Of a stretch of 64,000 bases of DNA, positions 48,787 to 54,756 are shown piece after piece; positions within the stretch are counted from its first letter, which is position 1; each line of letters starts with the position of its first letter. The stretch lies in assembly GCF_019218295.1 (NCBI RefSeq), contig NZ_JAHUZF010000006.1:930001-994000 (forward strand), given 5' to 3'. This stretch comes from Maritimibacter sp. DP1N21-5. GTDB taxonomy: Bacteria; Pseudomonadota; Alphaproteobacteria; Rhodobacterales; Rhodobacteraceae. Both the position numbers and the translations under genes were made by a program. Under the pieces are notes generated by a model that was not told the DNA's origin, made no database searches, and saw nothing but the letters and a program-made list of their open reading frames with translations.

Positions 48787-48841
48787 TAATTGCCCCGAAA
48801 GTGTTGACGAACAGAACGGGAACTATTCAGGAGATTGACCT

Positions 48842-49625: not shown

Positions 49626-53872
<4,247 letters not shown>

Positions 53873-53910
53873 GGGAGTCCTTGGCGAAATTTCGCAGAAA
53901 GTTCGCATTT

Positions 53911-53925
53911 GTTCTCAAAAAGTTC
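53911..53925 (+). promoter_or_regulatory. LexA (SOS) box
   Basis: GTTC-TCAAAAA-GTTC is a perfect alphaproteobacterial LexA site (GTTC-N7-GTTC). A third GTTC lies at 53901, ten bases before. The only downstream gene is the 40-residue protein at 54004; TTTACA directly after the box could be its -35. Confidence 0.7.
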
Positions 53926-54003
53926 TTTACAGCGCGGGGCTCGTTGTGAGAACAAAGCGTTAACAAAGAACAAACGCAGCACATTGAGAACAGGAGCGCC
54001 TCG

Positions 54004-54126
54004 ATGATCAAGGATATCCAAGCCGTATTCGCCCGGTCCCGCGCCACGATCTGGCAGGACCTTGCCGGCGGCGCCGCTCTCATGATCGGCCTCATGGCTG
54101 CGCTTCATCTTCCAGGAGTCCTCTGA
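54004..54126 (+). CDS. 40-residue membrane protein under LexA control
   Basis: 40 codons starting MIKDIQAVFARSRATIWQDL and ending LHLPGVL. An amphipathic basic N-terminus is followed by one transmembrane helix (about residues 21-39). AGGAG lies 7 bases before the ATG. It has its own LexA box 79 bases upstream and its own terminator downstream, so it forms a separate unit between recG and the NifU-like gene. Too short for routine gene calling. By size and topology it resembles small SOS-induced division inhibitors such as Caulobacter SidA, but I see no sequence match; the function is inference. Confidence 0.7.
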   Translation: MIKDIQAVFARSRATIWQDLAGGAALMIGLMAALHLPGVL

Positions 54127-54261
54127 CCCCACACGAGTTTCTGCCTGCGGATCAGGGTCCCGGCATCTGTCCCCAACTCGATGCCGACGTTTACCCAAGC
54201 GTCACCTGTCCTGCCCGGAGTTCTGCCTCTTTCCCCGGGTCCGACCCAACCGCATACCTTC

Positions 54262-54295
54262 CGCCGCCTCCCATGGAGTGCGGCGGTTTTTTTTG
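54262..54295 (+). terminator. Strong intrinsic terminator of the small SOS-type gene
   Basis: CCGCCGC/GCGGCGG outer stem (54262-54268 with 54281-54287), an inner CTCC/GGAG extension, then eight T. It lies 135 bases after the small gene and on its strand. Confidence 0.92.
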
Positions 54296-54312
54296 TTCAG
54301 CAGGGGGCGGGG

Positions 54313-54756
54313 TCAGGCGGCCGCCTGTGCCTCGTCCATGGCGGCGAGGGTGGCTTCCCAGGCGAGCAGGATCGAGGGGTGCCGGTTCTTGAAGTCGCGC
54401 GCCGGGCGCAGTACCTCGAGGTCCTCGAAGGGCGCGGGCGGGGTCGGCCCGTCCTCGCGCAGCATCTTGATGAGCGCGTCGCGCGCGGCCTCGACGGTGG
54501 CGCGGTCCTGCCCGATCACATGCGCGCCCAGGATCGAGGAGGACGCCTGACCCAGGGCGCAGGCCTTCACGTTCTGGGCGAAGTCGGCGACCTTGCCATC
54601 CCGCACGACGACCTGCGCGGTGACAGTCGATCCACAGAGGGGCGAGCGCTGCTTGGACATGCCTTCGGGCGCATCGAGGCTGCCCAGATGCGGAATATCG
54701 GCGGCCAGCGCCAGAATGCGTTTGGAGTAGAGCTTGATCAGGTCGCTGTCGCTCAT
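54313..54756 (-). CDS. NifU-like iron-sulfur scaffold protein
   Basis: A 147-residue protein with the NifU_N fold: Cys in RSPLCGSTV, the conserved [16 protein letters not shown] segment and a helical C-terminus. The third scaffold Cys is not evident in its usual place, so it may be a SUF-type U-like protein of altered function. GGAGGGAAAGTG precedes the ATG at 54756. It is divergent from hisI. Confidence 0.82.

Follow-up and report, generated by a model that had tools for sequence, protein, structure and literature searches.

Peptides of the SOS response that carry a single membrane helix include membrane toxins, and TisB is a LexA-controlled membrane toxin with one such helix. DinQ is described in excerpts of PMC3567139 as belonging to the SOS regulon and as a toxic peptide with a single transmembrane segment. 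In the alphaproteobacterium Caulobacter crescentus, SidA is a tiny inner-membrane protein that is induced in the SOS response, according to the excerpted text of PMC4211646. An SOS-controlled RNA is represented by DinR of Klebsiella pneumoniae, which is cleaved off the LexA-controlled dinI message at the 3' end and acts on the ribosome-binding site of ftsZ to repress it; the stretch of DinR that pairs with ftsZ is called Klebsiella-specific (PMC10907235, excerpts). Within the Rhodobacteraceae, CcsR1-4 of Rhodobacter sphaeroides originate in the 3'UTR that follows a small-protein gene, and the division gene cluster is a target of StsR and UpsM (PMC8625941, PMC8307010, excerpts). The terms recG and SOS are absent from the main texts of PMC8625941 and PMC8307010, and LexA is absent from that of PMC8625941; a paper on Ruegeria pomeroyi sRNAs mentions neither SOS nor LexA in its main text.

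The window analyzed here, a 64,000-nucleotide stretch of a Maritimibacter genome, contains a 40-codon frame that is preceded by a LexA box and followed by a structured 3'UTR. The frame lies between recG (51758-53872, plus strand, itself preceded by ligA) and a minus-strand NifU-like gene (assignments by Pfam). The features of the locus are as follows.

53901..53904, plus strand: third GTTC half-site, 6 nt 5' of the LexA box (letters read)
53911..53925, plus strand: LexA box GTTC-N7-GTTC, GTTCTCAAAAAGTTC (letters read; present at 142/143 loci)
53926..53931, plus strand: TTTACA, a -35-like element adjoining the box (conserved at a fixed place; putative promoter function)
53950..53964, plus strand: inverted half-sites GAAC-N7-TAAC, family consensus GAAC-N7-CAAC (letters and consensus; putative binding site)
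53992..53996, plus strand: Shine-Dalgarno sequence AGGAG (letters read)
54004..54126, plus strand: frame of the predicted 40-aa single-helix membrane protein, stop included (open reading frame, conservation, hydropathy, structure prediction)
54137..54260, plus strand: core of the structured 3'UTR RNA, multi-branched with C-rich loops (covariance-model match G000:C6:984137-984260, fold, covariation)
54141..54147, plus strand: loop or leader word CUGCCUG (letters, motif count)
54167..54173, plus strand: loop word CUGUCCC (letters, motif count, fold)
54205..54211, plus strand: unpaired word CCUGUCC (letters, motif count, fold)
54223..54229, plus strand: loop word CUGCCUC (letters, motif count, fold)
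54261..54294, plus strand: intrinsic terminator, a G+C-rich hairpin plus a tail of eight T (fold)

The frame opens with an ATG at 54004, 78 bases beyond the box, and runs through 40 codons to a stop at 54124-54126. The letters and the RNA fold bear out the original prediction for the positions of the frame, the LexA box, the third GTTC and the terminator, and the ribosome-binding site that it proposed corresponds to the AGGAG at 53992-53996 ahead of the ATG. It had, however, missed the structured RNA of the 3'UTR. The terminator stem was seen in the RNA fold; a simple scan for terminators in 53500-54700 did not list any. A promoter scan of the same interval reported no sigma-70-like site on either strand, including the 40-aa gene's own promoter.

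A GTTCN7GTTC motif occurs twice in the 64-kb window, where 2.4 occurrences are expected. Because this count is at the chance level, the box by itself is not significant and was rejected as evidence in its own right; its conservation in relatives decides. The second occurrence in the window is GTTCCCGTTCTGTTC at 48809-48823 on the minus strand. The whole genome (G000) contains 135 such motifs versus 76 for the reversed control pattern, and this excess of about 60 gives a hint of how large the LexA regulon may be.

Conservation was judged at 143 distinct loci, which are the better-scoring protein matches from 137 of the 262 positive family genomes together with six genomes of the same genus. GTTCN7GTTC is present within 200 bp upstream of the frame at 142 of them (the exception is L103), and its start falls 69-115 nt 5' of the start codon at all 142. 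GTTC pairs with spacers of N3 or N8-N12 occur at 1 to 6 of the 143 loci and those with N4 or N5 at none, the control CTTGN7CTTG is found upstream of the frame at 0/143 loci, and shuffled upstream sequences contain GTTCN7GTTC in 17 of 2860 cases. The third GTTC is conserved as well, giving GTTC-N6-GTTC at 132 of the 143 loci. A blind scan of the relatives' contigs for GTTCTYAWAAAGTTCTTTACA leads to the same frame: among the 117 matches listed, 112 run into the 40-aa gene, and the other five comprise two that are truncated where the stored DNA ends, one with a divergent frame and two that are unrelated. At L326 the operator precedes a divergent small frame that is barely matched by the protein profile and may be a fast-evolving version of the gene.

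When the upstream regions are aligned on the box, the consensus reads GTTC-N6-GTTC-N7-GTTCTTTACA, a gap of near-fixed length, and then TGAGAACAAA and CAACA. The TTTACA that adjoins the box fits a -35 element. Since GAAC and CAAC are inverted half-sites with a spacing of 7, two operators may flank the promoter, and we infer the promoter itself, because no -10 hexamer was recognized and the promoter scan gave none.

The same family carries GAACN7GAAC upstream of recA in 18/19 genomes (both directions read) and upstream of lexA at 14/15 loci (those of 30 that were read in the gene direction). In most of the 19 family relatives examined for recA, the box GAACAAGAGG(C/T)GAAC stands about 160 nt before the GKGSIM codons (L347-L370). 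Of the 296 family genomes, 287 have a LexA-domain match. The 40-aa gene is missing from 29 of these and from 5 of the 9 that lack such a match (p = 0.0014). In G141, G169, G175 and G176 the gene is present and a LexA-domain match is absent.

These four genomes could mean that the GTTC array binds a regulator other than LexA, as could the extra half-sites and the conservation of the N7 spacer beyond what a bare GTTCN7GTTC motif demands. The shared motif at recA and lexA and the loss of the gene along with LexA make another regulator very improbable. We regard LexA control of the unit as very likely on the strong sequence support that the original prediction thereby gains, with the box at nearly every locus and an operator scan that leads back to the frame; LexA would bind at the box and DNA damage would induce the gene. 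The available part of a published in silico study of LexA sites in D. shibae (Dinoroseobacter) does not name the 40-aa gene.

The protein is widespread in the family. A profile built from 25 copies (E ≤ 0.01) finds it in 262 of 296 Rhodobacteraceae genomes, some weakly and mostly with one match; of the 34 gene-less genomes, 14 are known by gaps in the match list. Of the seven matches in a class-wide sample of 289 genomes, five are in members of the family; the other two are weak and cover pieces of longer frames. A total of 152 copies was extracted, 143 of them distinct; all begin with ATG and 131 of the 152 are exactly 40 aa long. Frame and box are conserved together (262/296 genomes and 142/143 loci, respectively), as the original prediction had proposed to check, so the lack of conservation that was to count against it is not observed.

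Synonymous change exceeds non-synonymous change in the frame, with pS 0.30 and pN 0.04 for the nearest relative and means of 0.65 and 0.36 over 122 copies. The closest protein (90% identity) is labelled uncultured Maritimibacter sp. There is no match for the protein in Pfam or NCBIfam, even at E 10, a PDB fold search with the one-helix model returned none, and plasmid and phage records gave no match to the window's single protein sequence.

The original prediction of a basic N-terminus and one membrane helix agrees with charge, hydropathy and a structural model. Among the 98 distinct 40-residue sequences, residues 1-18 have a mean net charge near +0.9 and residues 21-40 contain no K or R; the C-terminal half is hydrophobic by hydropathy. 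An AlphaFold prediction that drew on 60 sequences has helices at 2-11 and 13-39, with a confident second half (for the helix at 13-39, pLDDT 96 and 89 over residues 21-40). The product is thus supported as a tiny single-pass protein under LexA with a predicted inner-membrane location. Seven residues are invariant in the 98 sequences (M1, D19, G22, L26, L30, L34 and P37), and the conservation moment along the protein peaks at 100 degrees per residue, as for a single helix face that binds a partner. A recG-like C-terminus is encoded upstream at 140 of the 143 loci by a loose motif. A location behind recG, which the original prediction fitted to a DNA-damage theme, is frequent in the family, but this speaks of position only.

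The unit might also encode a LexA-induced membrane toxin of the TisB or DinQ kind that lowers membrane potential and slows growth. Its LexA control and single helix agree with the description of DinQ (PMC3567139, excerpts), but the gene is near-universal and mostly single copy, holds a fixed place beside recG, lacks a match to the window's protein sequence in plasmid and phage records, and keeps its invariant residues on one helix face. We consider such a toxin quite improbable. A patchy or mobile distribution is common among type I toxin modules, although it does not strictly define them, and the gene is not distributed in this way, being present in 262 of 296 genomes with a recG-like neighbor at 140 of 143 loci.

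The 3'UTR is near certain to be a structured RNA, as judged from folding and covariation. The window's 3'UTR folds with z -3.8, and the mean over 122 copies with the terminator removed is z -2.9. MAFFT and RNAalifold yielded no consensus structure for a group of 21 3'UTR sequences, and one was obtained for a group of eight from the window's genus; given the result with 21 sequences, we built a covariance model (R1) from nine similar sequences, all copies from other genera with hand-kept pairs. With a cutoff of E ≤ 0.01, R1 recognizes 67 of 100 loci (three are training copies) and misses 33. All 67 matches are on the strand of the gene and start within 65 nt of the stop codon.

In an alignment fitted to R1, double changes occur in 25/25 pairs and fill 252 cells versus 52.6 when shuffled and at most 47 when slid. 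Since this alignment leans toward its own model, an alignment-free arm swap was added; for 116 of 119 copies, pairing was better with the native 3' arm than on average with 60 foreign ones. G.U pairs outnumber A.C mismatches by 76 to 16, which places the RNA on the gene's strand. The CTGCC word occurs in 98% and TGTCC in 91% of 129 copies, at 5 to 7 times the expected number, and the motif bases are more often unpaired (0.72) than other C (0.40), a preference that holds in 114/119 copies.

In a whole-genome search with R1, 54137-54260 is the only match at E ≤ 1 in the window's own genome (E = 0.005). R1 is also found in 8 of 10 other gene-bearing genomes (three are training genomes), so that it misses 2 of 11 gene-bearing genomes overall, and in the 34 gene-less genomes it has two doubtful matches only (E = 0.048, partial; E = 0.97). 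G163 contains a second, weak match away from the gene (G163:C1:3549104-3549206, E = 0.086). Cereibacter johrii (L302) and Rhodobacter ruber (L247) have shorter 3'UTRs in which CTGCCTGTCC still stands 5' of the terminator. No Rfam family reaches its gathering score in 15 relative loci, and the six Rfam matches at E ≤ 10 in 53850-54320 of the window are all far below theirs. A conserved structured RNA is therefore found between the stop codon and the terminator of a putative LexA-controlled mRNA that would be a single transcript.

This RNA bears on whether the peptide alone is the SOS effector. It could be a SidA-like division inhibitor whose 3'UTR just stabilizes the mRNA or tunes its translation. 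The invariant helix face suits this idea, and LexA control, size and predicted topology are as in SidA (PMC4211646, excerpts). The repeated, exposed C-rich words and the compensatory changes in the 3'UTR nevertheless exceed the needs of a terminator, and we think a peptide that acts alone rather unlikely.

The precedent of DinR in Klebsiella led us to examine ftsZ, after the loop words had been listed. The loop words CUGCCUGU (with one G.U) and CUGUCC are complementary to ACAGGCGG and GGACAG, the two mutually overlapping halves of ACAGGCGGACAG; the commonest loop word needs a G.U wobble to pair with the ftsZ site. The ftsZ leader contains CAGGCGG in 41 of 44 family genomes; in the comparison with outgroups it is present in 21/22 family relatives and 0/7 readable outgroup genomes. 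The sole exception among the 22 relatives is without the 40-aa gene, and the gene-less G008 and G022 keep the site. CAGGCGG occurs in 28 of 30 gene-bearing genomes, hand-picked over the family, versus 16 of 30 gene-less ones (p = 0.0009, uncorrected for kinship). Its retention in those 16 implies that the site is not there solely for the 3'UTR RNA. The commonest leader 7-mer is shared by 7/13 recA and 2/22 lexA leaders versus the 41/44 for ftsZ. Whatever the cause, conservation in the Rhodobacteraceae is far higher at the ftsZ ribosome-binding region ACAGGCGGAC (e.g. L386, L468-L497) than at the recA and lexA leaders compared.

By motif score in an 800-kb sample with 467 genes, the number of genes that score at least as well as ftsZ is 7, 12 and 6 for words of 8, 7 and 9, respectively. 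By duplex energy, ftsZ ranks 95 of 657 genes. Its mean pairing-energy percentile is 0.21 in 17 genomes, where recA has 0.60 in 16, and 0.15 in a set of 27 genomes, in all 27 of which ftsZ does better than the median. Plain duplex energy was set aside as a target test, because it fails to single out ftsZ, and this failure counts as evidence against the pairing. With unspecific pairing energy and a site that is kept in about half of the gene-less genomes, ftsZ is a candidate rather than a result, and pairing of the 3'UTR RNA with its leader is a prediction.

The same unspecific energy would suit an RNA that is itself the main product, one that masks many ribosome-binding sites or soaks up an RNA-binding protein as a sponge; its targets would lie outside division, and the peptide would be an accessory. 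Its repeated loop words and conserved structure are also what such an RNA would have. The clear protein-level constraint on the peptide and the unusual conservation of the complementary site at ftsZ speak against this, and we judge it unlikely.

We favor a transcript that is induced in the SOS response, yields both a single-helix membrane protein and a regulatory RNA, and probably restrains division; we give this combined reading about an even chance. Taken more broadly, it is roughly an even question whether the peptide, the RNA or both restrain division. In undamaged cells LexA would sit on GTTC-N7-GTTC next to the -35 region, and perhaps also on the inverted half-sites farther downstream. 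Once DNA is damaged, RecA would promote self-cleavage of LexA and release a transcript of about 340 nt, from which the RNA might be processed. The first product would be the 40-aa inner-membrane protein, with its basic N-terminus inside and one helix that spans the membrane to the C-terminus. Its conserved helix face may dock in a SidA-like manner on a partner that spans the membrane several times (e.g. FtsW/FtsI/FtsN). The second product would be the 3'UTR RNA. With its C-rich loops available for pairing, it may mask G-rich ribosome-binding sites in a DinR-like manner, with ftsZ as the leading candidate. One or both products would most likely restrain division during repair. In its fullest form this becomes a family-wide DNA-damage checkpoint with two arms, in which the peptide stalls the septal machinery and the RNA shuts off ftsZ translation via the conserved ACAGGCGGACAG leader; we offer it tentatively, as possible but doubtful.

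The Rhodobacteraceae are a major marine and photosynthetic family, and this unit is a specific, conserved and genetically simple candidate for their SOS division inhibitor. A search of the open-licence literature, with subscription journals outside its scope, located no paper that names such an inhibitor for the Rhodobacteraceae, nor the 40-aa gene. Its protein falls outside Pfam and NCBIfam, and its RNA structure stays below threshold for every Rfam family. If both arms act on division, then a single SOS transcript would affect the divisome through protein as well as RNA, and the SOS division inhibitor of the Rhodobacteraceae would be of a dual peptide-RNA kind that is convergent with SidA and DinR. 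Even if not, there would be a conserved RNA under LexA in alphaproteobacteria that is directly testable.

Each of the described systems matches a part of this unit. DinQ and TisB have its LexA control and single membrane helix, but they are enterobacterial toxins with antisense RNAs, whereas the 40-aa gene is near-universal, mostly single-copy and beside recG. The UTR-derived sRNAs of R. sphaeroides (UdsA-H, CcsR1-4 and UpsM) and StsR, compared here by description, share its occurrence in the Rhodobacteraceae; the promoters of UdsA, UdsH, UdsC and StsR differ in being RpoH-type (PMC8625941, PMC8307010, excerpts). SidA is like the 40-aa protein in small size, predicted topology and LexA control, and in these features alone: SidA has 29 aa rather than 40, and the excerpted description of it mentions no structured 3' RNA (PMC4211646). 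DinR likewise comes from the 3' end of a LexA-controlled small-protein mRNA and shares a possible ftsZ target, yet the genes are unrelated, the Rhodobacteraceae RNA is family-wide with a covarying structure, and its ftsZ pairing is predicted. The 3'UTR RNA resembles DinR in its origin and possible target and not in its sequence history.
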